A DNA stretch of 25,350 nt from a virus. How positions within the stretch are numbered: position 1 is the first letter of the stretch; every line of letters begins with the position of its first letter. A program made the position numbers and the translations under genes. The notes beneath the pieces are model-generated. The model was given only the letters and a program-made list of their open reading frames with translations, ran no database searches and was not told the DNA's origin. The stretch spans positions 1 to 25,350 of IMG/VR virus record IMGVR_UViG_3300032331_003108; one strand, 5' to 3'. This document shows positions 5,363-25,350 of this stretch, piece after piece.

Positions 5363-5374
5363 ATTTATTATTTA

Positions 5375-9127: not shown

Positions 9128-9130
9128 ATT

Positions 9131-10659: not shown

Positions 10660-10669
10660 TATTTTTGAT

Positions 10670-10677
10670 TATAAATA
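10670..10677 (-). promoter_or_regulatory. Candidate late-promoter motif TATTTATA (copy 2)
   Basis: The coding strand reads ATAATATTTATAATCAAA in the short gap between gp6 and the 393-aa gene; TTTATAAT ends eight bases before the ATG. The opposite strand carries the exact octamer TATAAATA. The recurrence before several late genes is the only evidence. Confidence 0.35.
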
Positions 10678-12959: not shown

Positions 12960-13303
12960 TATCTATTCATTAAACCCATTATCTGATCTAATCCTAATTC
13001 ACCTTCAGGTAATTGTCCATTTACAGGATCAACAGGTCCTGCTGATCTAAATGGTATGTTTTCAGTTGATGCTATCCCTCCGTTTTGCATGTCTTCAAGT
13101 ATATTGCCAAACATTGCTCTACGTTCAGATGGAGTTAGTTGTTTAGATGATTGGGTATTAGATTGTGTATTAAAAGGTTGCACACTTTCTGTAACTACAT
13201 TTTTTGGAGCTTTAACGGCTTCAAGTAAGATATCACGTAATTCTTCTTGAATTACTTCTTTTACTGATTCTTTAATGATTTTTTTAAATTTTGTAACGTC
13301 CAT
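12959..13303 (-). CDS. Conserved small phage protein upstream of gp25
   Basis: This 114-aa protein begins with an amphipathic charged helix (KFKKIIKESVKEVIQEELRD) and continues with a Gln/Ser-rich linker, an SERRAMFGNILEDM helix, and a Gly/Pro-rich tail ending in GLDQIMGLMNR. It looks like two short helices joined by disorder, as in assembly factors or small virion proteins. It sits between the 633-aa gene and gp25, with a TATTTATAAC motif just before its start. I do not recognise a named family and assign no function. Confidence 0.6.
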   Translation of the reverse strand: MDVTKFKKIIKESVKEVIQEELRDILLEAVKAPKNVVTESVQPFNTQSNTQSSKQLTPSERRAMFGNILEDMQNGGIASTENIPFRSAGPVDPVNGQLPEGELGLDQIMGLMNR

Positions 13304-13307
13304 ATGT

Positions 13308-13315
13308 TATAAATA
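13308..13315 (-). promoter_or_regulatory. Candidate late-promoter motif TATTTATA (copy 3)
   Basis: The coding strand reads CCCAATATTTATAACAT directly before the ATG of the 114-aa gene, in an 18-base gap. TTTATAAC ends only two bases before the start codon. If it acts as a -10 box the transcript would be leaderless or start inside the gene, so a translation or processing role is also possible. Confidence 0.3.
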
Positions 13316-13321
13316 TTGGGT

Positions 13322-15223
13322 TTAATAAGCTTTTAAATTATCTCTATCAATTATTAATTTAAGTTCATTAATTAATATTAAATCTTGTGTTGTGAATGAT
13401 AGTTCGGTTTGTACTAATATAATACCACTTTGATTTTTCCCCACAGCTCTTCTACGATTTACTGTTGGAGTGTATGGTACTTCTTCAATTTCTATTAAGA
13501 ATCCAGCATATGTAACTTGATTAATTGTATTATCTGCTTGAGTTTGTTGAGCTGCTATAGATATTAAATCATTTGAAATTGGTGTTAAACCGGGGAATAC
13601 TGGAGCGTTTGGTGGGGTATTAGATACATTACCTGCTAAATCAGGGGCACATTGTTTTAATTTAATATCTAAAGCTGACAATATTCCTACTATCTGTTGT
13701 ATATATAGGTTCACTAATGATATTGCGAGTGATGCAGATGCTATTGAATTAGCAATTTTGGGTAAACGTGGTGTACCATCTTTTTCAAATGTTGATTTAT
13801 TTATTATAGTTTCTAAATCACTTAATGTTGAAGTAACAACACCAGGAACACCAGGAGGACTAGGTACAGTTTTAACAGCCAATGATGTTGCTGTTTTTGT
13901 AGTTTTTAAAGCATCTATAACTGTTTGACTTATACTAAGAAATGTATTTAATCCGGTTAATGCTAATGTAAGTGTATTTAATTGTTTACCAATAATATTT
14001 AAAGATGTTACTAAATTATTTCGAGTGGCAATAAGTTCTTTAATAGTAGAATCATTTGGATTTGGACAACCATCAGCAAATACTGTTTTTAATATTGTAA
14101 CTATTTGTTTAGGAAGTTCATTAAATGTGAATGATCCAAAATTTATCAATTGGGTGCGTAAATTATCTTCAGCAATTTGTAAAGTTACAGGTATTGCTTC
14201 TTTTTTAGCAGTTAATGTTTTTATTAATGCTTCTGTTTCTGATCCTTTAATACCATTTTTTACTTTTTCATTTAAAGCATCAATTTGATCTTGAATTTTT
14301 TGTTGTTCTTTTGGTACTTTTTCTTTTAATTTTTTAATCTCATTTTCTACTATTTGAGTAATAAATTTTTTAACAATACCAATAGCAATAGGTATTAATA
14401 CTACTATTATTTTTTTACCTAAAGCTGTTATAGCTTTACTCAACTTAGCATTACCTTTAGCTTTTAATGATTCTGGGGTTGCGTTTTCAATAGCAGGTAA
14501 ATCAACATCTATAATTTTAGTATTATCACTTTTAATTTGCTCTGCTTCTTTTTTTCTTGTATTTTCTATATCTAATGGGGTTGGTACTTTTTCACCAATA
14601 CTATCTAGGGGTGGGGTAGAAAGAAGGGGAGGAATAACTTCAATGATAGTAAATGTTTTATCTATTTTTTCTTTTGAAAAAGCCTCTATGATCTTCTCTA
14701 GCATACCATTTGCTAGTTTTTCATAATCTTCATTAGATATGGGTTCATTTGGAGATGTATCGTCAAATTCATTGGTAAGAGTTGTACCTGCTAAATTATC
14801 ATATTGATATGTATCTATGAGTTGTAAAAAAGCGTCCGCACCTTCTGTTGAGTTAAGACTGTCGTCTCTCTCAGGAGGAGAATTGGGAAAAGTCGTAGTT
14901 ACTTTTATTATAGATCCTTCTATGGTGAAAGTAATTTCCTGTCTATAATTTCTTTCATTTGTAGATATTGGATTTGTTATACCAATTATGTAAATAGGGG
15001 TAGAATTTATACGGTTTTGAGTAGGAGATATTTCAGAAGTATTTAATTCTGGAGTTGGGTTATTAATTTTCTTAATAAGACTTATATTTTGACTAGCGGT
15101 ACCTGTATAATTTTGTATACCTTTTTCTTCAGCTAGTTTTTTTCTATTTGCAAAAGAAGAATCTATTCCTTTAGATCTAAGAAAATCAATAATACTATTT
15201 GTATAGTTTGAAGAAGATGCCAT
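13322..15223 (-). CDS. 633-aa phage protein with cell-wall-like N-terminal module and central coiled coil
   Basis: Residues 5-52 (YTNSIIDFLRSKGIDSSFAN, then RKKLAEEKGIQNYTGTASQN) strongly resemble a short module I associate with phage and bacterial cell-wall hydrolases and tail proteins of the pattern DYLKSxGxDSSFxxRxxLAxxxGIxNYTGTAxQN. Residues about 265-290 form a hydrophobic helix (IIVVLIPIAIGIVKKF), followed to about residue 340 by a charged coiled coil. The C-terminal third has long helices and ends with a beta domain (YAGFLIEIEEVPYTP). Lying between the gp5-like spike and gp25, it could be a baseplate hub protein or one that meets the cell envelope during injection; neither can be shown here. 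It is too unlike T4 gp53, gp27 or gp29 by eye to name. Confidence 0.62.
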   Translation of the reverse strand: MASSSNYTNSIIDFLRSKGIDSSFANRKKLAEEKGIQNYTGTASQNISLIKKINNPTPELNTSEISPTQNRINSTPIYIIGITNPISTNERNYRQEITFTIEGSIIKVTTTFPNSPPERDDSLNSTEGADAFLQLIDTYQYDNLAGTTLTNEFDDTSPNEPISNEDYEKLANGMLEKIIEAFSKEKIDKTFTIIEVIPPLLSTPPLDSIGEKVPTPLDIENTRKKEAEQIKSDNTKIIDVDLPAIENATPESLKAKGNAKLSKAITALGKKIIVVLIPIAIGIVKKFITQIVENEIKKLKEKVPKEQQKIQDQIDALNEKVKNGIKGSETEALIKTLTAKKEAIPVTLQIAEDNLRTQLINFGSFTFNELPKQIVTILKTVFADGCPNPNDSTIKELIATRNNLVTSLNIIGKQLNTLTLALTGLNTFLSISQTVIDALKTTKTATSLAVKTVPSPPGVPGVVTSTLSDLETIINKSTFEKDGTPRLPKIANSIASASLAISLVNLYIQQIVGILSALDIKLKQCAPDLAGNVSNTPPNAPVFPGLTPISNDLISIAAQQTQADNTINQVTYAGFLIEIEEVPYTPTVNRRRAVGKNQSGIILVQTELSFTTQDLILINELKLIIDRDNLKAY

Positions 15224-16446
15224 TATGCTGTTTTTACATATTTTGATTTAATATTATCTAAATTAGTACTCAATTGAGATAATGTTGTAGTTAATTGGGA
15301 TGCAACAGCATTTAATGGAGCTAAAGGAGTACCAGGTGGTACACCTACTAATGTACTACATATTTGTGTAAAAGATTGTAAATTTTGTACTAATGTTTTT
15401 AATAATGAGACTGTTGTATCCCCCAATAATACTGATTCTGTAGCATCTTTGGAACCTAAATAAACATTAGTTGATTGTATTATAGTATTTGGAGCATCAA
15501 TATTAATAGATGAGACTGCATTTAGATTAATAGATTTTTTAGAACTTAATAATATATGATCCTGAGTGGTATTAAATATTAATCGTCCTGAATTTAGGAT
15601 GATTTGTGGATTGTCTTTATATTCTTTAGGGTTAGTAGGTGGGTCTGTTTTATAACTTACATAACTAGTACTTGATGCTTCTAATGGTATTTTTTGAGTA
15701 CTAGTACTATATATTGAAGATAAATCTTCATTTATACCTTCAGTAATGGGTATCCATCCTTCCTCATTAGATAATGGTGATTGTCCATTACGTAATATTG
15801 TTATTGGGTCTCCATTAATACCAGTAGTAGACCAATTATTTTGTCTATTTGCAACTGTTGAACCAAATCTTATACTATTTCCCCATCTTCCTTCTTGTAT
15901 TATATCACCCTCAAATGGGAGTAATGGATGAATATTTGAGCGTTCTATAAAGGTTTGTCCTAAATATATTTCAGTACTTTGATCAGTGACACGTCTAACA
16001 CTACCTACTTCAGTTTGAGTATAATCTTTTACTTGTGATGGTGGTGGTACGAAAGAATTTTCAGGGTAAGCGTTATGATGGGGATGATTCCATAATGAAA
16101 CAATATTAACATAATATGGACGAGTCGCGTTCCATGTTAATTCAATTCCTGTACTAGGTAACGCCATTAAAAATACTATTTCATTTACTAAAGGATAATT
16201 TTTAGTATTAGGATGTAAAGGATAAGCTACTGATAATGTATTTGATATACCAGATGGGTTAGATACATCTTCAAATTCTATAGCTCCTAATGAATTCCAT
16301 TCACCTAATTCTTTAAATTTTGGATGTTCTTCATTAAGTATTATACTTTTAACACGAACCGGAACAAATTGAGGTTGATTAATAATTCCAGATTGTTGAT
16401 TAATCTGAGCACTGACAAATGAATTTAATCCGTATTTAGTAGCCAT
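15223..16446 (-). CDS. gp5: Baseplate central spike protein, gp5-like (OB fold plus beta-helix)
   Basis: This 407-aa protein has an N-terminal OB-like domain (residues about 25-130: FVPVRVKSIILNEEHPKF, LGAIEFEDV, YPLVNEIVFLMALPS), a conserved HPLLPFEGDIIQEGRWGNSI stretch near residue 175, and a repetitive beta-helix-like segment at about 280-345 (IILNSGRLIFNTTQDHILLS, then SINLNAVSSINIDAPN). This layout matches the T4 gp5/VgrG spike that pierces the outer membrane. The last 60 residues are helical and may trimerise. I see no lysozyme domain between the OB fold and the spike, unlike T4 gp5, so peptidoglycan digestion would need another protein. It overlaps both neighbours by one base. Confidence 0.82.
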   Translation of the reverse strand: MATKYGLNSFVSAQINQQSGIINQPQFVPVRVKSIILNEEHPKFKELGEWNSLGAIEFEDVSNPSGISNTLSVAYPLHPNTKNYPLVNEIVFLMALPSTGIELTWNATRPYYVNIVSLWNHPHHNAYPENSFVPPPSQVKDYTQTEVGSVRRVTDQSTEIYLGQTFIERSNIHPLLPFEGDIIQEGRWGNSIRFGSTVANRQNNWSTTGINGDPITILRNGQSPLSNEEGWIPITEGINEDLSSIYSTSTQKIPLEASSTSYVSYKTDPPTNPKEYKDNPQIILNSGRLIFNTTQDHILLSSKKSINLNAVSSINIDAPNTIIQSTNVYLGSKDATESVLLGDTTVSLLKTLVQNLQSFTQICSTLVGVPPGTPLAPLNAVASQLTTTLSQLSTNLDNIKSKYVKTA

Positions 16447-16787
16447 TAGTTATTTTCTGTGTGGATTTTTTGTATTTCTGTTAATAATTGAGCTTTTTCT
16501 TCTTCAGATATACCATAATCACTAGCGTCAACTGATGATGAGTTTAATATTCTTTGAATAATAGTAGACATTTTGATAAGTTGTTCATCGTTCTTTACAC
16601 CTATCTCCATGTACTCTTTAATTAATGGTACTATTAAGGTAGCATCACCTATATCATTAATCAATGGTTTTAATTCAGATATTAAAGCAGATATTTGTTT
16701 TTCTTTCTTCTTTTGGTTATCGTATATCTCTTCTAAAATATCGCTAAATTTTTTCTTACTAAATACTATATTATCTAATGCACTCAT
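16446..16787 (-). CDS. Small helical phage protein, unknown function
   Basis: This 113-aa protein is predominantly charged alpha-helix, with heptad-like stretches at residues 12-40 and 55-85 and a C-terminal EEEKAQLLTEIQKIH helix. It opens the late structural run and ends in a TAATG overlap with the gp5-like gene. Before it lies a 28-base gap with a TATTTATAAT motif. Candidates by position are a small baseplate or hub assembly factor. No family is recognised. Confidence 0.58.
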   Translation of the reverse strand: MSALDNIVFSKKKFSDILEEIYDNQKKKEKQISALISELKPLINDIGDATLIVPLIKEYMEIGVKNDEQLIKMSTIIQRILNSSSVDASDYGISEEEKAQLLTEIQKIHTENN

Positions 16788-16801
16788 GTGTATAAATTTA
16801 T

Positions 16802-16809
16802 TATAAATA
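16802..16809 (-). promoter_or_regulatory. Candidate late-promoter motif TATTTATA (copy 4)
   Basis: The coding strand reads TTACATATTTATAATAAAT between the sigma-factor gene and the 113-aa gene. TTTATAAT ends 12 bases before the ATG. This is the junction between the regulatory block and the structural run, exactly where a late promoter would be expected. Confidence 0.4.
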
Positions 16810-16815
16810 TGTAAC

Positions 16816-17541
16816 TTAAAAATTTGTATATCCCTCTTCTAAATAAAATAAATATTTTTTCTTAAAAATACTATGTAATTTATCTGCTACTTTGGTAATT
16901 TTTGATGTTTTTACATCAATAATCTCACGGATATATATATAAAGTGCTTTTTTATTAAATATATCTAAACTATTTCGTTTACGGAATAATTCCAAAATAG
17001 CATCAGCTGTTTGAGCCTCGATGTCTTTAGGGAATAATTCAAATATATTATTTGTACAATACTCAACATATTTGTCTATAAAAAATGATAAATTAGTACT
17101 AATTACAGATGATTTCACATCATCTAATTGATATGAAAATTTTTCATCTTCTTCAATAGAAGCTATAGGTACTTTTTCTACTTGTTTTTTATAGTTATTT
17201 TGATTAGATAATATTAAGTAACGTTTAGCTATAGTTCCAAAGTAAGAAAATGCCTTAGTACCTTTACTTTGATCATATAAATGAATCTTACTGAGTAAGA
17301 ATATAATAACTTCATGTTGAAGGTCAGTAATATTATCTACTTCAGTATAGTAGAATTTAAATGTGTGTATTATATTTTCAGTTAATTTGAAAAAAGCAGG
17401 ATGAATTCGTTCATTATATATTCTATTACGCTCCTCTTCATCAGTACTTACTACATACTCTACAATAGCATTTTCTGTGTCTTGTGTAAAATAAACATTA
17501 GACTTTTTCTTTTTCTTCTTTACTACAACTTCTTCTACCAT
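16816..17541 (-). CDS. gp55: Late-transcription sigma factor, T4 gp55-like
   Basis: This 241-aa protein has the layout of phage late sigma factors related to T4 gp55, which redirects host RNA polymerase to late promoters. A lysine run (residues 8-13) precedes VYFTQDTENAIVEY. Residues about 47-112 correspond to sigma region 2: FFKLTENIIHTFKFYY, then DLQHEVIIFLLSKIHLYDQS and KGTKAFSYFGTIAKRYLI, the best conserved stretch. Residues about 180-232 are helical with a possible helix-turn-helix (REIIDVKTSKITKVADKL). It is longer than T4 gp55 (about 185 aa), like the homologues in marine T4-like phages. It starts with a TAATG overlap with the membrane-protein gene and seems to be read from promoter P4, which has host-type elements. 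A gp33-like co-activator was not found here. Confidence 0.85.
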   Translation of the reverse strand: MVEEVVVKKKKKKSNVYFTQDTENAIVEYVVSTDEEERNRIYNERIHPAFFKLTENIIHTFKFYYTEVDNITDLQHEVIIFLLSKIHLYDQSKGTKAFSYFGTIAKRYLILSNQNNYKKQVEKVPIASIEEDEKFSYQLDDVKSSVISTNLSFFIDKYVEYCTNNIFELFPKDIEAQTADAILELFRKRNSLDIFNKKALYIYIREIIDVKTSKITKVADKLHSIFKKKYLFYLEEGYTNF

Positions 17542-17834
17542 TATATATTTTTAATATTAAATTTATTCAATACTTCTTGTATTGATAATAATTGCTCAAA
17601 GAAGAAACCTACCTCATCGTCACTTTTAAATGAACCTTTAGAATCTACTTCTTTAAGTCTTCTATCAGAATGTTCTATAATATCTGCTATTTTATTTAAA
17701 TAAGACATGTATCCACTTAAAATTTTAGATTGGTTTTCAACCATGTCTTCTAATTTTTCATTCTTGCGTAATAAATTAAAAGTAGTGTAACTTAAAATTA
17801 AAATTAACGCGATTAAAACGTATGTTAGTACCAT
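17541..17834 (-). CDS. Small one-pass membrane protein
   Basis: Residues 1-20 (MVLTYVLIALILILSYTTFN) are a single strongly hydrophobic N-terminal helix followed by positive residues (LRKNEK), which predicts an N-out/C-in inner-membrane anchor. The remaining 75 residues are charged helix with heptad-like spacing. The gene is wedged between the HD-domain gene and the sigma-factor gene with one-base overlaps at both ends, so all three should be made together. It could be a spanin- or holin-like protein or a membrane tether, but there is no lipobox or second membrane helix to support a lysis role. Confidence 0.6.
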   Translation of the reverse strand: MVLTYVLIALILILSYTTFNLLRKNEKLEDMVENQSKILSGYMSYLNKIADIIEHSDRRLKEVDSKGSFKSDDEVGFFFEQLLSIQEVLNKFNIKNI

Positions 17835-18619
17835 TATATATTATTTAATAAGTTTTTAAGACCTTCAGATTTCATATTTCCTAAAACCTTAGTTTTAGCA
17901 GCTTTAGCATTTGGTTTATTTGAATTATTTGAACCTAATGAAAAATTAGTTTTTACATCTTTTGTTTCTCCTTTAAATTTAGGGAACCATTCACGTTCAA
18001 ATTCTATTTTAGCAGCTAATAAATCAGCTTGGTGTACGATATGTACTAATGCTGTTCTAACTTTAGTTTCTGGAGCCCATGACATAAGATATGGTTTATT
18101 TGATTCATCGTATAACCCATCATGTAATTTAATAGCTAACCATTCATTTTTAGTATAGTTAATCCCATGTGAATTTAATAAAAATAAACCTCTATCTGGA
18201 ACGGACATAAATTCAAGTTTATTATTGAATGTATAATCTTCACCTAATTTATCTTTACGCCATTGATCTGTTTGAGGAATATATGACTCATTATTTTCAT
18301 CCCCCATTTTACCTAAATCATGATTCATAGCTGAGAATACTAATTCTTCAACAGTGTAATTTTGTTCTGCTCCAAATTCTACCCATATTGAGTTAATTTT
18401 AAGTGCGGCTTCAATAACACGATTAACATGTTCAACATATCCTCCTGGGAATGCGTTATGGTATTCTTTCTTATGGGCAGCGGGCATTATAATAATTCGT
18501 TCCGAATATTGTTCATAAAATGCTTTTAATTTAGATGCCCTAGGTTCTGAGATGTATGTATCTATATAGCCTATAAATTTATTCCAGTTCTCTTGGATTT
18601 GTTCTGCTGTTAATTTCAT
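17834..18619 (-). CDS. HD-domain metal-dependent phosphohydrolase
   Basis: This 261-aa protein shows the HD-superfamily metal ligands in order: H64 in GGYVEHVNR, H100-D101 in AMNHDLGKMGD, H166-D167 in AIKLHDGLYDE, and H196 with D199 in VHIVHQADLLA. Such enzymes hydrolyse phosphoester bonds in nucleotides or cyclic/linear signalling nucleotides; the substrate cannot be read here. The last 40 residues are a Lys/Asn-rich tail ending in a short helix. It lies 18 bases after a 66-aa gene and overlaps the membrane-protein gene, in the operon that also makes the late sigma. dNTP salvage or removal of a host alarmone are both plausible; this is inference. Confidence 0.82.
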   Translation of the reverse strand: MKLTAEQIQENWNKFIGYIDTYISEPRASKLKAFYEQYSERIIIMPAAHKKEYHNAFPGGYVEHVNRVIEAALKINSIWVEFGAEQNYTVEELVFSAMNHDLGKMGDENNESYIPQTDQWRKDKLGEDYTFNNKLEFMSVPDRGLFLLNSHGINYTKNEWLAIKLHDGLYDESNKPYLMSWAPETKVRTALVHIVHQADLLAAKIEFEREWFPKFKGETKDVKTNFSLGSNNSNKPNAKAAKTKVLGNMKSEGLKNLLNNI

Positions 18620-18637
18620 AACTTTTATTTTTGTTTA

Positions 18638-18838
18638 TTAATAAGATGAGTTTATTTCATTTGCTGATCTAGGTTCATATTCAATGAATGCCTTAATTTC
18701 ATCAACTAATTCTTTCAGTTCGGCTGTAGTTTGTAAAAACATTTCACCATCACCTCCTCTTTTAACTAAGAAATCTAGTTTACCTAAACCCGATTCCACT
18801 TTTTCTAATTTTCGTCTAATTATTTCACGATTTACCAT
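18638..18838 (-). CDS. Small helical protein, unknown function
   Basis: This 66-aa protein is mostly one or two amphipathic helices (REIIRRKLEKVESGLGKL; TAELKELVDEIKAFIEY) joined by a Gly-rich turn (KRGGDGE). The pattern resembles small phage accessory proteins that act as dimers, but I do not recognise it. It is the first full gene after promoter P4 and a purine-rich leader, and is followed closely by the HD-domain gene. Confidence 0.6.
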   Translation of the reverse strand: MVNREIIRRKLEKVESGLGKLDFLVKRGGDGEMFLQTTAELKELVDEIKAFIEYEPRSANEINSSY

Positions 18839-18944
18839 ATATTGTATTTTAAATTTTATATTAAATGTTCCATTCTCTCCCCTCTTATCTCACCTCGTTT
18901 CCTATTCTCTCTCTTATTATCCTAATTCCCTTAAATCCGTAATT
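18839..18944 (-). other. Purine-rich 5' leader of the late-sigma operon
   Basis: From about 18870 to 18935 the coding strand is nearly all A and G (runs such as AAGAGAGAGAATAGGAAACG and GAGATAAGAGGGGAGAGA). It contains the strongest Shine-Dalgarno-like sequence I noticed in the window (AGGGGAGAGA) just before a six-codon mini-ORF, MEHLI, at 18856-18873. The segment after it is A/T-rich up to the real start. It may be a leader controlling translation, or a protein-binding site. Confidence 0.4.
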
Positions 18945-18976
18945 AGAAAATACGATTTATTTTTTATACCTCCAAA
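18945..18976 (-). promoter_or_regulatory. Promoter P4, Bacteroidetes-type, before the HD/late-sigma operon
   Basis: The -33 element TTTG lies at 18973-18976 and the -7 element TATTTTCT at 18945-18952, with exactly 20 bases between them. This is the Bacteroidetes primary-sigma spacing also seen in P1-P3. The spacer ends ATCG, as the others end GTCG or GTCA. The -33 element lies within the last codons of the 144-aa gene. Confidence 0.55.
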
Positions 18977-19398
18977 TTTTCCTGGGAGAGCTTTAAAATT
19001 TCTTTTATAACCGCACATTTTTCATATTCTTCATATTTGATAAAAAAGTTCATGGCTGAGGTTAAGTTATTGACTAGGTAACTTTGCTTAAATTTAATCA
19101 GCAAAGCATTTCTATGATCATCATTATTTAAATCCAGCATTTCTATAAATGAATAAGCCCGACTATAAACAATAATATCACCAGCCTCTATCAATAATCC
19201 AGGGTCATAATGTTCATCATGTTTAAACATTAATTCAAGCTGGTGGTTAAATACATTATTATTTTGTATCAATTTTTCAAACATACTAATCCAAAACAAC
19301 GGAGTCTCATATAATTCAATAATAGTGTTGTCATTTTCAGATAATGGCTTATCTCCGTTTTTATGATCGAATAATGCGAATAATTTATCTACATCCAT
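18964..19398 (-). CDS. 144-aa phage protein of unknown function
   Basis: This acidic, helical protein starts MDVDKLFALFDHKNG and has aromatic-rich stretches (LYETPLFWISMFEKL; YSRAYSFIEML) and a C-terminal region that includes NFFIKYEEYEKCAVIKEIL. The pattern suggests a small all-alpha domain. A strong terminator and a TATTTATA motif lie immediately upstream, so this gene seems to start a new transcript. Its final codons double as the -33 box of promoter P4. No family is recognised, though similar-sized proteins occur near late regulators in T4-like phages. Confidence 0.6.
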   Translation of the reverse strand: MDVDKLFALFDHKNGDKPLSENDNTIIELYETPLFWISMFEKLIQNNNVFNHQLELMFKHDEHYDPGLLIEAGDIIVYSRAYSFIEMLDLNNDDHRNALLIKFKQSYLVNNLTSAMNFFIKYEEYEKCAVIKEILKLSQENLEV

Positions 19399-19401
19399 GT
19401 C

Positions 19402-19409
19402 TATAAATA
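19402..19409 (-). promoter_or_regulatory. Candidate late-promoter motif TATTTATA (copy 5)
   Basis: The coding strand reads ATATATATTTATAGAC just before the ATG of the 144-aa gene and directly after a terminator. Starting a transcript here makes sense because upstream transcription should stop at the terminator. The match ends in TAGA rather than TAAT. Confidence 0.35.
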
Positions 19410-19415
19410 TATATT

Positions 19416-19445
19416 AAAAAAAGCACCAACGGTTATGTTGGTGCC
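19416..19445 (-). terminator. Intrinsic terminator of the lipoprotein gene
   Basis: On the coding strand GCACCAAC (19444-19437), a six-base loop, and GTTGGTGC (19430-19423) form a perfect 8-bp stem followed by seven T residues (19422-19416). It lies about 20 bases after the lipoprotein stop codon. It is the clearest intrinsic terminator I found in the window. Confidence 0.92.
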
Positions 19446-19466
19446 TTAAATTGTTCAAAAAACCTA

Positions 19467-19640
19467 CTAATCAGCGCAACAGCTAGTGTCAGCTTTAACA
19501 ACGTGTGTTGTATCAGTATTATCAACACAAGTTGAATCAATTACTGTTTCTGTAGAAACTGTAGTATTTGTCTCTTTAGAGTTGCAAGAAATTGCGAACA
19601 TGGTAGCGATTGCAATCGCTGTAAAAATTGTTTTTTTCAT
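19467..19640 (-). CDS. Small secreted lipoprotein, 57 aa
   Basis: Reading from ATG at 19640 to TAG at 19467 gives 57 residues: MKKTIFTAIAIATMFAISC, then NSKETNTTV, and a Thr/Asp-rich chain ending in DTSCCAD. The first 18 residues are a classic lipoprotein signal peptide (KK, hydrophobic core, lipobox AISC with Cys19). Cysteines at 38, 54 and 55 could bind metal or form disulfides. The SC-N start of the mature protein is typical of Bacteroidetes, and no +2 Asp retention signal is seen. It is a single-gene unit, with promoter P3, a structured leader upstream and a strong terminator downstream. Such surface lipoproteins can mediate superinfection exclusion (as T5 Llp does), but that role here is inference. 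The start ATG is preceded by AATAAAAACAAACAAA without an SD. Confidence 0.8.
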   Translation of the reverse strand: MKKTIFTAIAIATMFAISCNSKETNTTVSTETVIDSTCVDNTDTTHVVKADTSCCAD

Positions 19641-19680
19641 TTTGTTTGTTTTTATTTATTAATTAATATTTACTAACTTT

Positions 19681-19760
19681 GGGCAATTAAGGCTTATAGT
19701 AGGTGGTACATTTTCTACCATTTAACCTATTCGTGAGTACCTGTTAAGTACCTTAATTCC
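19681..19760 (-). ncRNA. Candidate structured RNA in the lipoprotein leader
   Basis: On the coding strand GGAATTAAGG (19760-19751) can pair with CCTTAATTGCC (19692-19682), giving ten base pairs with one bulged G. Inside, TGGTA (19720-19716) pairs with TACCA (19708-19704) around a GAAAATG loop, extendable by TAGG/CCTA across a bulge. A competing TTAAC/GTTAA pairing (19747-19743 with 19726-19722) could form an alternative hairpin. It lies between promoter P3 and the lipoprotein start. Folding was done by eye, and no known riboswitch or ribozyme signature was recognised. Confidence 0.4.
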
Positions 19761-19805
19761 AACCCCTTTATATCTTCAATAATTTTAATTTCATTTCTTA
19801 TATCA

Positions 19806-19837
19806 TAAATATATGACCCTAATTTCAGATAACCAAA
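19806..19837 (-). promoter_or_regulatory. Promoter P3, Bacteroidetes-type, before the lipoprotein unit
   Basis: TTTG at 19834-19837 and TATATTTA at 19806-19813 are separated by exactly 20 bases. The spacer begins GTTATCTGAAATTAG and ends GGTCA, closely matching P2 (GTTACCTGAAATTGG...GGTCG). Transcription would start about 160 bases before the lipoprotein start. Confidence 0.68.
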
Positions 19838-19842
19838 TTTTT

Positions 19843-20331
19843 CTAAATATATTTTTGTCCTATTTGTTTAACAATATCTATCGCTTCATTGATGGGTAAT
19901 TTAAAAAATTCTCTATTATTGCTCACCCGGTACATATCTAAAGATCTATGAATTTCATTTTCTAAAAATTCACCTTCATGACATTTAAATGCAAATTCAA
20001 TTACAAACGGTGTAGGTACTCCAGTAGTCGATGATATTTGTCTAGCACGTTCTTCTGGTGTTAATTTAGTATGACCTATCTTAACCATATCTGGCATTGA
20101 AGTATTAGATAAAACATATATCCAATATTTACCCTCACCTGTTCTAACCAATGGATGCTTTTTACGGTTAGTGTAATAAAATACATCATCCCATTCCTCC
20201 CATCCTTCTTCAAGACACTGAACACGTGTAAAATATTCAGCTGGATATCCTAAAATATCATCATCTACATTGATATATTCTTCAGCTTCTTCTGGTGTTA
20301 TATATTTCGGCTTCTTCGGGATATATTTCAT
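19843..20331 (-). CDS. T5orf172 / GIY-YIG-superfamily protein
   Basis: This 162-aa protein has a C-terminal domain (residues about 69-150) with YWIYVLSN, then MVKIGHTKLTPEERARQIS, STTGVPTPFVIEFAF, and finally IHRSLDMYRVSNNREFFKL. This order of motifs is the T5orf172 (MUG113-like) branch of the GIY-YIG superfamily found in phages and in mobile-element or anti-phage proteins. The N-terminal 65 residues are acidic and aromatic (DDILGYPAEYFTRVQ, GWEEWDDVFYYTNR) and unassigned. It lies 15 bases beyond the tRNA 3' end and probably shares the P2 transcript. DNA nicking is the family expectation; the target is unknown. Confidence 0.78.
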   Translation of the reverse strand: MKYIPKKPKYITPEEAEEYINVDDDILGYPAEYFTRVQCLEEGWEEWDDVFYYTNRKKHPLVRTGEGKYWIYVLSNTSMPDMVKIGHTKLTPEERARQISSTTGVPTPFVIEFAFKCHEGEFLENEIHRSLDMYRVSNNREFFKLPINEAIDIVKQIGQKYI

Positions 20332-20346
20332 TTCAGGATATTTAAG

Positions 20347-20421
20347 TGGACCTTGTAGGACTTGAACCTACGACCTTCACATTATGAGTGTGCTGCTACT
20401 AACCAACTGAGCTAAAGGTCC
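20347..20421 (-). tRNA. tRNA with CAU anticodon, probably tRNA-Ile2 (AUA-decoding)
   Basis: The coding strand folds as a cloverleaf of 75 nt: acceptor GGACCTT with AAGGTCC (seven perfect pairs) and discriminator A; anticodon loop CTCATAA on a GCACA/TGTGA stem whose outer pair is G-A; variable loop AGGTC; T stem GTAGG/CCTAC with TTCAAGT loop. The D stem is short (GCT/AGC) with an extra base in the loop. CCA is not encoded. CAU could be Met or lysidine-modified Ile2. The C4-G69 and C5-G68 pairs, reported as TilS determinants in E. coli tRNA-Ile2, and the TTCAAGTCC T-arm favour Ile2, which would help translate the many AUA codons of this genome. Confidence 0.9.
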
Positions 20422-20429
20422 TATATTTA

Positions 20430-21230
20430 TTAGTTAGCGTATTCTAAAGCTAAATCATATAATTTCTCGTTTAAAACCATATCTTGGTTGAAATTTTTAA
20501 TTTTACGAGCTTTACGATTCTTACCAGCGTATGAATAATTAAACATACCATGTACTAATTTCTCTTGAAGTACATTAAAAATACTCCATAAATCATCTCC
20601 TTTATCTTCATTACGAGTTGGTGTTAATAAACCATTAATATCAACACTTATGTTAGATAATTCATCTTCTGAGAAACGAACCGATAATGCTTTGGTTGCT
20701 AATTCTTCTGCTTGTTTTTGATTTAATTTTTTAGATTTAAACTTGTTCATTGACTCAACTGTCAATGGTAATCTTTCAACTATTTGTTTAATAGTATCTT
20801 GAAGTGTTTCAAAATCATAACCATAATGGCGAATTTTCATATTTTCAAATTCTTGAGTTGATACTACTAATCCGTTTTCACAAATCATTCTAAATAGTCC
20901 TGCAGTAAATGTAAATGCATTTTTACCGTCATGACTGTTTGTTAATAAAATTTGTGGATAAACTGTATCACCATCATCACCATTAATGACTATATCATTA
21001 TTACGGAATACAACTAAATGTTTTTGATAACCAATTTGCTTACGAGCTTTAACTTCCTTAGCATCGATTACATTCCATCCTAATAATGCCATATCCTCAA
21101 CAATTTGATTGGTTGGGATGTGTGAATATTTTTCTGATGTTGAATCCGCACCTTGTGCTGTAAATACTGATGGTGCAATTGTTTTAATTTGTTCTTGACT
21201 TAAGAATTCTTTACCTTTAATGTTTAACAT
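20430..21230 (-). CDS. DUF932 family phage protein
   Basis: This 266-aa protein matches the DUF932 family common in phages and plasmids: an N-terminal SHIPTNQIVEDMALLGWNVI block, then HLVVFRNNDI, ILLTNSHDGKNAFTFTAGLF and RMICENGLVV, followed by a helical region and a C-terminal LTPTRNEDKGDDLWSIFNVL and basic GKNRKARKIKNFNQD. The biochemical role of the family is not established; association with DNA replication or recombination has been suggested from context. It follows promoter P2 with a leader of about 20 bases carrying AAAGGTT before the ATG. The tRNA starts nine bases after its stop, so both probably share one transcript. Confidence 0.85.
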   Translation of the reverse strand: MLNIKGKEFLSQEQIKTIAPSVFTAQGADSTSEKYSHIPTNQIVEDMALLGWNVIDAKEVKARKQIGYQKHLVVFRNNDIVINGDDGDTVYPQILLTNSHDGKNAFTFTAGLFRMICENGLVVSTQEFENMKIRHYGYDFETLQDTIKQIVERLPLTVESMNKFKSKKLNQKQAEELATKALSVRFSEDELSNISVDINGLLTPTRNEDKGDDLWSIFNVLQEKLVHGMFNYSYAGKNRKARKIKNFNQDMVLNEKLYDLALEYAN

Positions 21231-21253
21231 AACCTTTATATTTTTTGTTTAAT

Positions 21254-21285
21254 TAAAGATACGACCCCAATTTCAGGTAACCAAA
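21254..21285 (-). promoter_or_regulatory. Promoter P2, Bacteroidetes-type, before the DUF932/tRNA unit
   Basis: TTTG at 21282-21285 and TATCTTTA at 21254-21261 are separated by exactly 20 bases (spacer GTTACCTGAAATTGGG...GTCG). It overlaps no coding sequence other than the end of the clpP-like gene nearby, and would yield a leader of about 20 bases for the DUF932 gene. Confidence 0.72.
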
Positions 21286-21291
21286 TTTTTC

Positions 21292-21843
21292 TCAACAAAT
21301 TTCATCAATTATTCCGTAAACTAGCGCATCTTCAGCGCTCATGTACCAATCTCTATGTTCTTTCTTAACAATATCTAACTGTTTTTTAGTTAAATTGGTA
21401 CTTTCTAATATAATAGAGTCATATATATTCATGATTCGTTTACCTTCTTCAACTTCACGTTTATGTGATGATAACTTTTCATCATTTAAAGACCATAATA
21501 TTTCATGATACATGAAGGTACTATGTTTACTAGCACTACGTTTATGTCCTGAAGCCATTATAATAAATCCCATTGATAAAGCAGCACCATAACATACTGT
21601 ATGAACTGGAGTAACACTATCTATAATAGCGTCTACAACACCGAAACCCCGGTATATATCACCACCATACGAGTTAACGATGATAGTTATTGGGTCTCGT
21701 TTACTCTCAGTTTTTTCCGCGTCTAAATAGTTGATTTCGTGTATGAATTGTATGATATCGTTAGCATTTTCTTCGTCAATATCACCTAAGGTTATAATAC
21801 GGTTGTCTTGATATCTATAAGAATTATGCGCTGATTTTTTCAT
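21292..21843 (-). CDS. clpP: ClpP-like serine protease subunit
   Basis: At 183 aa this is near the length of bacterial ClpP (about 195-205 aa). The catalytic triad is visible: S90 in YGAALSMGFIIMASG, H113 in STFMYHEI, and D165 in HRDWYMSAEDA. NSYGGDIYRGFGVVDAI matches the substrate-channel strand and helix of ClpP, and it ends with YGIIDEI as in bacterial ClpP. ClpP normally forms a 14-mer and needs an AAA+ unfoldase; no ClpX or ClpA is in the window, so it may use the host's, or act as a prohead protease or host-proteolysis modulator (T4-like phages normally use gp21 for proheads). It may share the thyA transcript; an AATAAATA-type motif also lies 17 bases upstream. Confidence 0.9.
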   Translation of the reverse strand: MKKSAHNSYRYQDNRIITLGDIDEENANDIIQFIHEINYLDAEKTESKRDPITIIVNSYGGDIYRGFGVVDAIIDSVTPVHTVCYGAALSMGFIIMASGHKRSASKHSTFMYHEILWSLNDEKLSSHKREVEEGKRIMNIYDSIILESTNLTKKQLDIVKKEHRDWYMSAEDALVYGIIDEIC

Positions 21844-21878
21844 AGTATTTAATTCATACTAATAAATATATGTTAATT

Positions 21879-22124
21879 CTAGATTATTGGGTTAATTATT
21901 CGTACATCTGATTCTGTTTCTATTATAACCCTAGCACCACAAGATAGCAGTGGTTTAGCACCATGTCCATCCCCACCATATATTATTCGACTTGGTCCTA
22001 GAATCTCAACTTCATTACAGTATGTATTCGTTTTACCTTGTTTAACTGTTATAACAGGTAAATTAGTTCCTTTAGTTTTATTAGAACGTATATTATGTTG
22101 ATTTACATGTATTCTTGTTTTCAT
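21879..22124 (-). CDS. Small conserved phage protein with Gly-rich GPSRIIYGGDG motif
   Basis: This 81-aa basic protein reads MKTRIHVNQHNIRSN, then LPVITVKQGKTNTYCNEVEI, a LGPSRIIYGGDGHGAKPLLS segment, and CGARVIIETESDV. It looks like a small all-beta fold. I recognise the pattern I-H-V-N-x-H, TVK...N-x-Y...V-x-I-x-GPS and SCGARV-x-IET as a widespread family of short phage proteins of unknown function. It begins three bases after the thyA stop and probably belongs to the thyA transcript. Confidence 0.7.
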   Translation of the reverse strand: MKTRIHVNQHNIRSNKTKGTNLPVITVKQGKTNTYCNEVEILGPSRIIYGGDGHGAKPLLSCGARVIIETESDVRIINPII

Positions 22125-22127
22125 AAT

Positions 22128-23258
22128 CTAGTTGGATAAAGGTGCTTTAATTATTGGGTGAGATTGATAATTACTTAACTGAATATCTTCTTCTAATAAA
22201 CATTTGCAGAAGTTGTCATTTTTAAACGATTCAAACACTTTAACAGCATCCAAAGGACCTACACCACACTCACCACCTTCATAAGGCCAAAACTCTGTGT
22301 TAATGTTTAGTTTAGGTAATTCAAATGGTTCTCTACCAATTTGCTCTTTTGCTTGTTCTATATGGTTATTGTACAAGTGTACATCACCTAAATTACCAAT
22401 TAGTTCATCAGGAACCATATTAACTGAAGTAGCAATGATCTCTAATAATAAGCCATAAGAAGCAATGTTGAATGGTAAACCTAAAAATGTATCTACTGAT
22501 CTTTGATTCCACATTAAAGAGATTGCTCTAGTTGGGATATTTTGTTCATCTGCTTTTTTTATTAACAATTCTAAACCAAAAGCCATTAACCCATCTGCTT
22601 GTTCTGTAACATTTGGTAATAATATTTGTAACCGTTCTTTTTCACTCAACTCTCTTGTATAAACTTGAAATCCATAATGACAAGGCGGAAGAACCATTTG
22701 GTCTAACTCTCCAATATTCCAAGCATTAACCATTAATCGTCTTGAGTCTGGATTTGTTTTAAGGTTGTTGATTAGATTTTGGATTTGGTCTATGCCTGGT
22801 TTAAGAACTTTTTTAGGTACATCAATCGTAGCCCATTCACCCCAATTTTTCCATTGTGCCCCATAAATTTTTCCCAAATCCCCAAACTTCTTAGCAAACT
22901 CATCATCTGTTTTGATACGTTCGATGAACTCATCCATCGTATCGGGCCAATCACCTTTATATTCATTTGTCTTACTGATGTAATTCTTAAAAGCGTCACC
23001 ATTCCAAATATTACAACCATTATCAACTAAGAATTTAATATTAGTATCACCACGTAAAAACCATAATAATTCAACTACCATAGTTTTCCATGCCATCTTC
23101 TTAGTTGTAAGTAATGGAAACCCTTCACTCATTTTGTGACGTATTTGTCTACCAAATACTGAAGTGGTACCTGTACCTGTTCTGTCTTGTTTTGTAACAC
23201 CGTTATCCAAGATGTCTTGGAGTAGGTCTGTGTATGCTTTATCTAATTTATTATTCAT
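22128..23258 (-). CDS. thyA: Thymidylate synthase, ThyA type
   Basis: This enzyme methylates dUMP to dTMP with methylene-tetrahydrofolate. Visible landmarks are R26 in DRTGTGTTSVFG, MVVELLWFLRGDTNI, SRRLMVNAWN near residue 172, the catalytic C193 in LPPCHYGFQVY, and QRSVDTFLGLPFNIASYG around 252-269. At 376 aa it is about 110 residues longer than E. coli ThyA (264). The extra length includes an insert of about 40 residues (about 203-245) between the catalytic Cys strand and the QRSVD motif, and longer loops around residues 85-125. It is a continuous ORF without the intron found in T4 td. It starts in an ATGA overlap with the 88-aa gene. It supports phage DNA synthesis from an AT-rich genome. 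Confidence 0.95.
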   Translation of the reverse strand: MNNKLDKAYTDLLQDILDNGVTKQDRTGTGTTSVFGRQIRHKMSEGFPLLTTKKMAWKTMVVELLWFLRGDTNIKFLVDNGCNIWNGDAFKNYISKTNEYKGDWPDTMDEFIERIKTDDEFAKKFGDLGKIYGAQWKNWGEWATIDVPKKVLKPGIDQIQNLINNLKTNPDSRRLMVNAWNIGELDQMVLPPCHYGFQVYTRELSEKERLQILLPNVTEQADGLMAFGLELLIKKADEQNIPTRAISLMWNQRSVDTFLGLPFNIASYGLLLEIIATSVNMVPDELIGNLGDVHLYNNHIEQAKEQIGREPFELPKLNINTEFWPYEGGECGVGPLDAVKVFESFKNDNFCKCLLEEDIQLSNYQSHPIIKAPLSN

Positions 23259-23521
23259 AACTCTTTATTGTTTATTCTATATATGTTATTGTTGTTTATT
23301 AATTGAGGGTTTATTTCTAATATATTAACAATAGCGTGTACAATCTCTTTTGGACTAAATGAAGTCTTCCAATCACACTCTTCAGATACTTCATCTACCC
23401 ATTGCATGTAGAGTTTATATAATTCATCTTTGTCTATTTCAAGACGTTCGAAGGCACCGTCTGGGCCTATTTGAAAGTCGTCTGAGATGTATGGTGGGTT
23501 GTCTTTATTTACTTTGTTCAT
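23255..23521 (-). CDS. 88-aa protein between thioesterase and thyA
   Basis: This acidic protein reads NPPYISDDFQIGPDGAFERL, then a helical segment (KDELYKLYMQWVDEVSEECD) and a C-terminal helix (SPKEIVHAIVNILEINPQL). Its start overlaps the end of the thioesterase gene by 17 bases and its stop overlaps the thyA ATG by four bases (ATGA), so the three genes look translationally coupled. No domain is recognised. Confidence 0.62.
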   Translation of the reverse strand: MNKVNKDNPPYISDDFQIGPDGAFERLEIDKDELYKLYMQWVDEVSEECDWKTSFSPKEIVHAIVNILEINPQLINNNNIYRINNKEL

Positions 23522-23927
23522 TATTTAAACTTTCAATTAATTTTGTAATTCTATTTTTACCTTTCTCATTAATAGGGATTGGATTTCCTTCTTCATCAAT
23601 TCTAACAAATCTTATGTTAGTCTTTAATACAACAATTTGATTACCTGTATACACATTGTGTGCTCGAGCCTCCATATACAACGTTAATGATGTATTACCT
23701 AGTTTATTAGGATATCCATAAATCTTTAATAACTGGCCTTCTTTTGCTGGTTTCTCAAAATAGCATTTATCAATAGACACAGTTACCATTCTTGGACTAT
23801 CACATAATTGCATTGAGTAACCAGCGGCTGCTGAGTCAATCCATGCTAATAATTTTCCTCCAAATAGATTTCCATGAAAACCTAAATCAGATTTTTTAAT
23901 TGGGTGTGTATTTAATAATTCCATCAT
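23505..23927 (-). CDS. Acyl-CoA thioesterase-like hotdog-fold protein
   Basis: This 140-aa protein has the YciA/BACH hotdog pattern: FHGNLFGGKLLAWIDSAAAG (residues 17-36), where an H-x-N/D and a central-helix Asp (D31) line the active site, then SIDKCYFEKPAKEGQLLKIY, and TSLTLYMEARAHNVYTGNQI with a terminal FVRIDEEGNPIPI strand. These enzymes hydrolyse acyl-CoA thioesters in the cytoplasm. ATGs at 23927 and 23924 are both possible starts. It sits just before the 88-aa gene and thyA. A phage copy could change host acyl-CoA pools, lipid synthesis or membrane composition; this is inference. Other hotdog activities (e.g. acyl-ACP thioesterase) cannot be excluded. Confidence 0.86.
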   Translation of the reverse strand: MMELLNTHPIKKSDLGFHGNLFGGKLLAWIDSAAAGYSMQLCDSPRMVTVSIDKCYFEKPAKEGQLLKIYGYPNKLGNTSLTLYMEARAHNVYTGNQIVVLKTNIRFVRIDEEGNPIPINEKGKNRITKLIESLNNEQSK

Positions 23928-23936
23928 TTATTTATT

Positions 23937-24374
23937 TTAACAACCTATACCAGGTATTCTACGATCTGTTTCAGGTTTTCCTATATTAATATTTTCACAA
24001 TTGTAATACTTAATCCAACCTTTTTCTATCAACTCTCCAACAAGTGCTTTTAATTCTGTAACCCCATCCATATCCATCACCTCTAACGCCTCATTTATAG
24101 ATGTTCTATCATTATCATAAATTCCACGTAACCAACTAGTATTATCCCAATCATCCGTTTTCCTAGGTTGTGTTCGTTTATCTGTAAATTTGATATCTAT
24201 ACAATCAGAATAAAATTCAACCTTGTCATAGTCCCTATATATTCGTGTTACTTCAAAACAGTATTTATCAGTTTCATGTACACAACCCTCAAAATGAGTT
24301 AAATCTAATTTTACAGGTGGAGTAGTTAATTCTTTAACGTACCACTCTCCATTTACTTGTATTCTATCTTCCAT
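23937..24374 (-). CDS. 145-aa protein, unknown function
   Basis: The protein reads RIQVNGEWYVKELTTPPVKL, a Cys-containing stretch (FEGCVHETDKYCFEVTRIY), a FYSDCIDIKFTDKR strand, WDNTSWLRGIYDND, and a final helix and Cys-containing tail (LKALVGELIEKGWIKYYNC; PGIGC). It looks like a small alpha/beta fold, perhaps with metal-binding cysteines, but no family is recognised. It lies 10 bases upstream of the thioesterase gene and about 56 bases after the AT-hook protein gene, with no terminator seen between them. Confidence 0.62.
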   Translation of the reverse strand: MEDRIQVNGEWYVKELTTPPVKLDLTHFEGCVHETDKYCFEVTRIYRDYDKVEFYSDCIDIKFTDKRTQPRKTDDWDNTSWLRGIYDNDRTSINEALEVMDMDGVTELKALVGELIEKGWIKYYNCENINIGKPETDRRIPGIGC

Positions 24375-24430
24375 TTTATATATTATTTTTAATTAACTAA
24401 ATGCTTACCAAACCCCCAATACATCAATAC

Positions 24431-24964
24431 TTATATACGCTTTTTTCTACCACGTTTACCGCCTTTACTAGCCTCAACTTTGGCTTGTCGCACCGCTTTT
24501 TCTTCAGGCGTGTACTTAGATGGACGACCTCGCTTACCATTACTCTTACTATGTTTTAATGCTTTTTCTTGTTCACGTTTTGCCTTCTCTTCTACGGATA
24601 ATGGTTTACGACCTTTTTTACCCGGTGTGGTATTTTTAGGTTTAGAGATTTTAACTTCATTTGTATTTTCTTTATTACCAAATGTTTTAATTCCCAGAAC
24701 ATATGGGTGTACAATCACTTGATCTAAATCATAACTATATACACAACCACCATCACCGTAGTATACTTCAAATCCACCATTTGGAAATGTTTTTTTCTCA
24801 CCTGGATTATACATTGCTTTTAGTGTGAAATATTCGTTGGGCTCATGGAAAAAATCCGCGGGCAACACTCGTACAGATTTTACAAAGTTTTTGAATTGTA
24901 ATTCAACATCCTCATATACTTTATATGGAATGTAACCGTCTTTTAATTTCTCTATTATTTTCAT
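24431..24964 (-). CDS. DNA-binding protein with three C-terminal AT-hook-like motifs
   Basis: The first 95 residues of this 177-aa protein form a compact alpha/beta-looking domain (YKVYEDVELQFKNFVKSVRV; GGFEVYYGDGGCVYSYDLDQ). The C-terminus is a basic tail with three AT-hook-like cores: KKGRKP (116-121), KRGRPSK (144-150) and KRGRKKR (170-176), separated by EEKAKREQEK-like helices. AT hooks bind the minor groove of A/T-rich DNA. Promoter P1 sits directly upstream, with its -7 element ending four bases before the ATG, so the message may be leaderless. A role in binding or organising AT-rich phage or host DNA, or in transcription control, is inferred; no enzyme domain is recognised. Confidence 0.76.
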   Translation of the reverse strand: MKIIEKLKDGYIPYKVYEDVELQFKNFVKSVRVLPADFFHEPNEYFTLKAMYNPGEKKTFPNGGFEVYYGDGGCVYSYDLDQVIVHPYVLGIKTFGNKENTNEVKISKPKNTTPGKKGRKPLSVEEKAKREQEKALKHSKSNGKRGRPSKYTPEEKAVRQAKVEASKGGKRGRKKRI

Positions 24965-24968
24965 GTTG

Positions 24969-25000
24969 TAAATATACGACCTTTATTTTGGGTAGCCAAA
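24969..25000 (-). promoter_or_regulatory. Promoter P1, Bacteroidetes-type, before the AT-hook protein gene
   Basis: TTTG at 24997-25000 and TATATTTA at 24969-24976 are separated by exactly 20 bases (spacer GCTACCCAAAATAAAGGTCG). The -7 element ends just four bases before the ATG, implying a leaderless or nearly leaderless transcript. Confidence 0.7.
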
Positions 25001-25007
25001 CTTGTTT

Positions 25008-25208
25008 TTAGTAATCGTAACTATATTCGATGTTCACTTCGTACCCTAAGTGCTCAAGCACTTGACGTAATATGGTTTCTGTGTCTTGGTTGTTGTACGG
25101 TAATTCCACACCGTTAACAGTTGTTATTGTCCCATAAGTAGTGCAACAACCATCACTACAATCATATGTGTACTCTGTTAGGTTTATGTTTAATTTGTTT
25201 TTTTCCAT
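25008..25208 (-). CDS. 66-aa Cys-containing protein, unknown function
   Basis: The protein reads MEKNKLNINLTEYTYDCSDG, then CCTTYGTITTVNGVELPYNN, and a helix with a Tyr-rich end (ILRQVLEHLGYEVNIEYSYDY). Three cysteines in a CxxxCC arrangement (17, 21, 22) could bind metal. The pattern resembles small uncharacterised phage proteins of aquatic Bacteroidetes phages. It starts directly after the stop of the membrane-protein gene with no gap. Confidence 0.6.
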   Translation of the reverse strand: MEKNKLNINLTEYTYDCSDGCCTTYGTITTVNGVELPYNNQDTETILRQVLEHLGYEVNIEYSYDY

Positions 25209-25350
25209 TTATTTGTCTTCTTTACAGGGTTTAAAAATTCGTTGATAAATACTCATTATAAATCCGATAAACATCGCACTATAAAGTACCACAATCGTCC
25301 CAATAATCCACGCATACTTTCGTAAATTAGAATCGTAATTATTATTTGCC
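25209..25350 (-). CDS. Membrane protein, C-terminal part only (start beyond window)
   Basis: An open frame enters from the right edge and ends in TAA at 25209-25211. The visible 46 residues include YDSNLRKYAWIIGTIVVLYS, then AMFIGFIMSIYQRIFKPCKEDK, that is, one membrane helix with a short basic, Cys-containing cytoplasmic tail. It abuts the next ATG (25208), so the two genes share a transcript. The N-terminal part and any further helices are outside the window. Too short to assign a family. Confidence 0.65.
   Translation of the reverse strand, partial: ANNNYDSNLRKYAWIIGTIVVLYSAMFIGFIMSIYQRIFKPCKEDK

Follow-up and report, generated by a model that had tools for sequence, protein, structure and literature searches.

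A dispersed family of putative early promoters with a fixed 20-base spacing in T4-like Bacteroidota phages

Short sequences on the minus strand of a virus record, each made of TTTG and, 20 bases further on, an AT-rich box, raise a simple question: are they promoters, and if so, which polymerase reads them? The record, IMGVR_UViG_3300032331_003108 of IMG/VR, was analyzed as a whole (25,350 bases) and is called the window here. An earlier note on this DNA had proposed four promoters, P1 to P4, all of the form TTTG-N20-TAnnTTT. Three of them, P1-P3, stand, and they are probably copies of an early promoter, read by the host polymerase, that is dispersed in T4-like phages of Bacteroidota. The family to which they belong is termed class A. 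The four sites, all on the minus strand, and the open reading frames (ORFs) behind them are the following:

24969-25000, minus strand: P1, class-A site TTTG-N20-TATATTTA, upstream of ORF 24431-24964
21254-21285, minus strand: P2, class-A site TTTG-N20-TATCTTTA, upstream of the DUF932 ORF 20430-21230
19806-19837, minus strand: P3, class-A site TTTG-N20-TATATTTA, upstream of a leader and the 57-amino-acid ORF 19467-19640
18945-18976, minus strand: P4, TTTG-N20-TATTTTC, rejected as a member of the set

The bare core, TTTG-N20-TAnnTTT, has five matches in the window against 1.91 expected, a number reached by 6 of 100 shuffles. By itself it is not clearly enriched, so the argument depends on the extended motif and the relatives. 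With up to three mismatches allowed, the extended pattern finds exactly P1, P2 and P3, and its mean in 100 shuffles is 0.00. A matrix built independently from 61 sites of three related genomes (G005, G010 and G011), with the window excluded, ranks the same three sites first: P1 scores 29.7 bits, P3 24.7 and P2 23.7, and the next best match 11.6. In 40 Markov copies of the window, the best score per copy averages 11.2 and reaches 23.6 at most. The claim that the sites form a dispersed set, and not a few accidental matches, is thus upheld for P1-P3. The fourth site was rejected: it scores 5.7 bits (rank 9), departs from TAnnTTT at the final base, lacks the spacer of the other three, and its TTTG is coding, lying within the last codons of ORF 18964-19398. 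Since TATTTTCTA is kept there in all five sequences compared (one of them, L005, has CTTG for TTTG), P4 may be a weak, unrelated promoter. A sigma-70 style promoter scan of 16700-25350 gave no excess, with 46 matches against 54.2 expected.

Are these sites found elsewhere? The closest named and isolated phages are the Flavobacterium immuto phages, whose baseplate and sigma-like proteins are 46% and 45% identical to those of the window, and gp20 and gp23 in their annotation point to a T4-like affiliation. They also agree with the host phylum to which the earlier note had linked the sites. Seven relatives were scanned (immuto, G005, G010, G011, G006, G012 and G001), and all seven carry class A, which can be written as TTTG(G) or GTTG, 20 bases, and TATATTTA, mainly in gaps and on the coding strand. 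Our own expectation-maximization motif finder, run on intergenic gaps, returned one long motif in four of them, with log-likelihoods, against those of shuffled gaps, of 577 and 113 (immuto), 350 and 104 (G005), 562 and 111 (G010), and 279 and 100 (G011); the motifs returned for G006, G012, G001 and the window were different or weak.

The whole-genome matrix scan that the earlier note had proposed was done by leaving each genome out of its own matrix, with a threshold above 15 bits and a reversed matrix as control. Matches on the coding strand, on the other strand and with the reversed matrix numbered 17, 0 and 0 in immuto; 25, 1 and 1 in G005; 25, 2 and 0 in G010; 20, 0 and 0 in G011; 18, 0 and 1 in G006; 3, 0 and 0 in G012; 7, 0 and 0 in G001; and 3, 0 and 0 in the window. 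The outcome is strand-specific, with two reversed matches over the eight records, and in the five large records 76-85% of the coding-strand matches are noncoding, compared with 4-7% noncoding sequence. The spacing is narrow: the seven phages have 157 noncoding TAT[AC]TT[TG]A boxes, 95 with a TTG-type box 20 bases upstream and 72 with one at 19 (TTTGG is counted at both), and every other spacing occurs 0 to 7 times. TAnnTTT is followed by A in 86 of 91 family sites, by T in three and by G in two.

In the relatives the sites are dispersed, for the most part in variable small-gene regions (19 of the 30 in immuto lie at 60-77 kb), and the window has three. Upstream of DUF932 genes,.TTG-N20-TAnnTT was present in 45 of 65 regions, drawn from 79 loci after duplicates and loci with too little upstream DNA were left out.

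What is the meaning of the spacer, which differs at only 6 (P1/P2), 7 (P1/P3) and 3 (P2/P3) of 20 bases and whose likeness among P1-P3 had been pointed out before? The suggestion that a regulator reads it has not fared well. In nine ortholog comparisons between the window and four relatives, which are not independent, no core base changed (0/108) while 18 of 180 spacer bases did (Fisher p 2e-4), half of these changes coming from P3 in L005, which was compared ungapped. The relatives are 89-98% identical around the compared sites, so that the rate of change in the spacer is close to the background. Its consensus also varies from phage to phage. Most simply, P1-P3 have similar spacers because the cassettes share an ancestor, and not because a regulator site is conserved. 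Counting against common descent, GGCTnCCCAGG occurs in 13 of the 65 DUF932-upstream regions and GGCTnCnCAGG in 22.

Which polymerase, then, would read class A? According to the accessible part of PMC6847099, promoters of Flavobacterium johnsoniae have the consensus TANNTTTG (TTTG and TAHHTTTG), with a nearly invariant G after TAnnTTT (G-5), a weak -33 signal, a start 4-5 nucleotides (nt) downstream of the -7 box, and leaders that average 33 nt and exceed 10 nt in 87%. The earlier note had quoted this host consensus in a shortened form. What it called the Bacteroidetes primary-sigma pattern is found in part: P1-P3 and the class-A consensus have the -33 TTTG, their spacing may be of the Bacteroidota type, and they depart from the full consensus by an A where the host has G. 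The spacing was compared with that in 46-50 kb of each of three unrelated phages. In crAss001, TTG stands at 20 before 7 of the 16 noncoding TAHHTTTG boxes, against 0 of 7 in 6H and 1 of 11 in phi38:1, so that the 20-nt spacing agrees with the host pattern in one control out of three; noncoding TATMTTTA boxes with TTG at 20 number one in 6H and two in phi38:1. The class-A -7 box is, by its sequence, a variant of the host box, and class A is host-like but not host-consensus. Because the G at -5 was looked for and is lacking, we do not file class A as a canonical Bacteroidota promoter. By the F. johnsoniae start rule, again as given in the accessible part of PMC6847099, the P1 messenger is predicted to be leaderless, starting at the A of ATG 24964 (this ATG begins 12 nt after the T of TATA), and the predicted leaders of P2 and P3 are 19 and 161 nt. 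P1 is unchanged in L006, the sole relative found for its gene; across the relatives, an ATG lies 12 or 13 nt after TA in 7 of 91 sites.

Does the phage have, in addition, promoters of another kind? When class A was masked in immuto, G005, G010 and G011, a ATATTTATAA-like box appeared about 10 nt before many genes, with log-likelihoods, against shuffled sequence, of 127 and 55, 110 and 48, 176 and 51, and 91 and 51, respectively. In immuto, these genes include those for sheath, tube, tape measure and portal, plus hypothetical genes. G006 and G012 were searched unmasked (the G006 motif mixes both classes), and G001, masked by pattern only, gave 63 against 45. The masked search of the window was not significant (41.3 against 36.0). 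Exact ATATTTATAA words number four there against 1.39 expected, and 8 of 100 shuffles reach four; with one mismatch there is no excess (26 against 27.04). All four lie on the minus strand, which carries the main ORFs of the window, 3-16 nt before the next ORF of a block (206-16787) that contains the baseplate wedge protein gene (10678-12552). Beyond this block lies a sigma-like gene, followed by others that encode, among them, T5orf172, DUF932 and ClpP-like proteins, and the window also has a thymidylate synthase gene. The boxes and the sigma-like gene are listed here:

16816-17541, minus strand: candidate gp55-like late sigma factor, whose orthologs in G005, G006, G010 and G011 match Sigma70_r2
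16801-16810, minus strand: ATATTTATAA box (class B, late-like), 13 nt to ORF 16446-16787
13307-13316, minus strand: ATATTTATAA box, 3 nt to ORF 12959-13303
10669-10678, minus strand: ATATTTATAA box, 9 nt to ORF 9478-10659
2864-2873, minus strand: ATATTTATAA box, 16 nt to ORF 2194-2847

The Sigma70_r2 domain matches at one place in six of seven records, once above the curated cut-off, and in the four records compared this place is the ortholog of 16816-17541. Sigma70_r4 matches in none of the seven, and Sigma70_r4_2 gives a single weak match, in G006, outside the sigma-like ortholog. For the sigma-like protein itself, the AlphaFold model is poor (mean predicted local distance difference test score 65.5), the Foldseek matches listed for it are mostly sigma factors, none of them significant (best E 0.27), PHROGs and Pfam returned nothing at E 0.01, and a sequence search of the PDB gave one irrelevant match. 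Reading a -33 box is the task of sigma region 4. As the phage sigma gene has no detectable region 4 and class A has a -33 box, the host sigma is the likelier reader, and class A is most likely read by the host polymerase.

T4 has middle (MotA) and late (gp55) promoter classes. A T4-type late promoter has no fixed upstream box and lies before structural genes; P1-P3 do have an upstream box at a fixed distance, and the genes behind them are a DUF932 gene, the 57-amino-acid ORF and an unassigned ORF. The separate ATATTTATAA class thus fits a T4-type late promoter better than P1-P3 do. The likeness to T4 lies in the separation of early or middle from late-like classes, in a late-like box that no upstream box accompanies at a fixed distance, and, as with gp55, in a sigma gene without a detectable region 4. 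The box sequences differ.

The scheme that these data favor would run as follows. P1-P3 would be three copies of an early, or early/middle, promoter dispersed in a large group of T4-like Bacteroidota phages. Host RNA polymerase with its primary sigma would read TTTG(G) near -33 and, at the fixed distance of 20 bases, TATATTTA near -7, the final base of the phage box being A instead of the G of the host consensus. The ATATTTATAA box, before tail and other genes, would be read by the phage's own sigma, presumably one with region 2 only. The similar spacers of P1-P3 would go back to a common cassette, and in the relatives the strongest spacer stem-loops with a T-run would combine, in about 35 bases, the terminator of the preceding gene with the promoter of the next.

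A number of results weigh against this scheme. The -7 element of the host, TAHHTTTG with its G, is absent: P1-P3 have A, and G is found in the two family sites mentioned above. A rigid -33 box and a leaderless P1 are unlike the weak -33 signal and long leaders reported for F. johnsoniae in the accessible part of PMC6847099, and the host-consensus boxes of 6H and phi38:1 hardly keep the spacing. The Sigma70_r2 domain has no match in immuto. Records of relatives with the strict, window-like pattern (up to three mismatches) numbered six out of nine in one scan and two out of six in another, and therefore a window-like spacer is not general; 20 of the 65 DUF932-upstream regions do not have even the shorter.TTG-N20-TAnnTT. 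When P3 in L005 is taken out of the ortholog comparisons, the contrast narrows to 0/96 core and 9/160 spacer changes (p 0.015). Finally, P1-P3 fold no better than shuffled copies (z 0.12, 0.88 and 0.57).

How do these elements compare with promoters and cassettes already described? Of Bacteroidota sigma-ABfr promoters, as far as the sources available to us describe them, class A shares TTTG at about -33, TA..TTT at about -7 and the 20-nt spacing seen at 7 of 16 crAss001 boxes; it differs by an A for the nearly invariant G, a far stronger -33 box (TTTGG) and a single rigid spacing. The start-associated sequences of cluster K mycobacteriophages (SAS/ESAS), for which a role in translation initiation is proposed (accessible part of PMC3203893), likewise recur immediately upstream of start codons, and some of them contain inverted repeats whose arms vary between phage groups; in contrast, class A has two promoter boxes. 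A literature search, with most subscription journals outside its coverage, showed no description of the present promoters among the best matches listed.

A different emphasis comes from the promoter-early stem-loop (PeSL) cassettes of T4-type phages, which are reportedly the subject of Arbiol 2010 and Comeau 2014. Could the elements be mainly recombination cassettes of this type, a terminator plus a promoter, kept for gene shuffling? This is possible but rather unlikely as the principal role, and it is compatible with their being promoters. Folding was tested on a 36-nt stretch, from 10 bases before TTTG through TA, with z below -1.5 taken as a fold. Of the 91 sites in the relatives, 36 fold (34 in a first run); with one shuffled copy per site the number is 8. 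Sites within one phage are related, however, and their folds are not independent events. GCCTC-TTCG-GAGGC is one example, and in immuto T-run-tailed hairpins stand before the DNA primase and PhoH genes. The tails of hairpin sites are T-richer (4.88 against 3.63 of 8, p 4e-4), and in many hairpins the 5' arm takes in the -33 box. Some of the relatives' copies look like a terminator nested in a promoter, as judged from their sequences. Covariation in the stem of one DUF932-upstream lineage (9 of 12 loci aligned, the other three being repeats; eight distinct sequences) is suggestive: 92% of cells are paired, and a covariation score of 0.091 is reached by 1 of 500 shuffles, while as many pairs with changes on both sides (two) are reached in 35 of the 500 shuffles, and as many pair types in 117. 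A side observation concerns class-A sites such as those of G010 and G011: over four phages, an ATG at most 14 nt after TA is commoner in strong-hairpin sites (7 of 34) than in the others (3 of 57), a close packing of stop signal, promoter and start codon.

Gene exchange was followed in ten G010-like loci, picked for their similarity to G010 from 36 compared. Breaks in gene content lie within 30 nt of class-A sites in 117 of 485 cases, against 113.6 expected at gene boundaries, and within 60 nt in 148, against 136.7 (standard deviation 9.3); uniform positions would give 29.4 and 47.8. Breaks near the sites are thus no commoner than at gene boundaries. A finer mapping of edges in seven of the ten loci (L053, L062 and L079 were left out), all of the G010 lineage, shows that homology resumes at -10 to 0 of the site start in 33 instances over 99 sites, compared with one over 173 control gene starts; it ends 45 to 60 nt after the site start in 49 instances, against 29 in the controls. 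At control gene starts, homology resumes nearer the start codon, as expected where there is no conserved upstream element. Exchange of the PeSL type predicts such a pile-up, but edges like these could also arise from nothing more than a conserved cassette function. PeSL cassettes are cited in the accessible part of PMC4503421. The likeness of class A to them lies in dispersed early-type promoters and stem-loops in variable regions of T4-like phages, with edge homology breaks in one lineage. The differences are that the class-A stem-loop sits between the -33 and -7 boxes, that the host polymerase is of a different type, and that most class-A sites, P1-P3 among them, have no strong stem-loop; a stem-loop terminator in the same cassette is found at a subset of the relatives' sites only.

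A third account has a phage activator or co-sigma, similar to MotA of T4, recognize TTTGGC and part of the spacer, after which the host polymerase would use the non-consensus TATATTTA. We consider this improbable, although several features would suit it: the rigid spacing and strong TTTGG(C), where the accessible part of PMC6847099 describes a weak host -33; the A that replaces G at 86 of 91 sites; the scarcity of the host box TAHHTTTG on the coding strand of five phages (13, against 24 on the other strand); and the GGCTnCCCAGG upstream of some DUF932 genes. Yet spacers vary from phage to phage and, unlike the core, also from ortholog to ortholog, and the TATMTTTA boxes of 6H and phi38:1, together with the full host box at 20 in crAss001, indicate that the host sigma alone could explain the sites. 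No candidate activator was found, and no search was aimed at one. A broader idea is that of a phylum-specific promoter class in which a phage factor redirects the host polymerase to TTTGGC and TATATTTA at rigid spacing; many copies would fold the -33 box into a nested terminator hairpin, and an element of about 35 bases would thereby end one transcript, begin the next, at times without a leader, and serve as a homology patch for gene swaps. It is equally speculative and unlikely to be right in full. For P1-P3, chance matches in AT-rich DNA can be set aside with near certainty: the weak enrichment of the bare core and the poor fit of P4 are what chance would give, but the long motif, the independent matrix and its controls refute it.

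To return to the window, two features lie downstream of P3:

19680-19766, minus strand: conserved 87-base block of the P3 leader that hardly varies among five sequences
19420-19447, minus strand: terminator-like hairpin with a T-run, after the 57-amino-acid ORF (fold z -5.18)

Around the block, between P3 and ORF 19467-19640, the sequence diverges. One possible drawing of the block is a three-way junction that has two hairpins with mutually complementary loops (GGTAC and GTACC). The block is possibly a structured RNA. Its nested fold is not significant, and the sequences vary too little for covariation; an Rfam search found no family beyond tRNA and no match for the block, genome contigs gave none either, and a distant viral match (L222), inside a coding gene, was taken as chance. 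The hairpin would end the P3 transcript; a terminator pattern scan found two sites against 2.7 expected, and thus no excess. It is the one strong feature of its kind that bears on the earlier note's proposal that the promoters divide this region into transcription units.

Other observations concern the rest of the window. A tRNA-Met gene (CAT) lies at 20346-20421 on the minus strand, between the DUF932 and T5orf172 ORFs, an interval that in L007 holds an extra 125-amino-acid ORF with CxxC pairs. At 18841-18930 (minus strand), before ORF 18638-18838, the sequence is 77% purine, a character kept, by eye, in four relatives. The GC skew turns from mostly positive to negative near 16-17 kb, despite nearly all long ORFs being on one strand. 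Within the thymidylate synthase ORF (22128-23258), the 148 bases at 22646-22793 are 94.6% identical to immuto phages and are the sole megablast match to them (first 25000 bases searched), while the adjacent part of the protein, by eye, differs strongly between the window and L006; this suggests recombination inside thyA.

What do these promoters mean for the phages that carry them? They would provide a sequence rule to find early-type and late-type promoters in a large and mostly uncultured group of T4-like Bacteroidota phages. They also offer a testable case in which promoter, terminator and recombination patch may be combined in one short element, and isolated phages (immuto) exist for such work.

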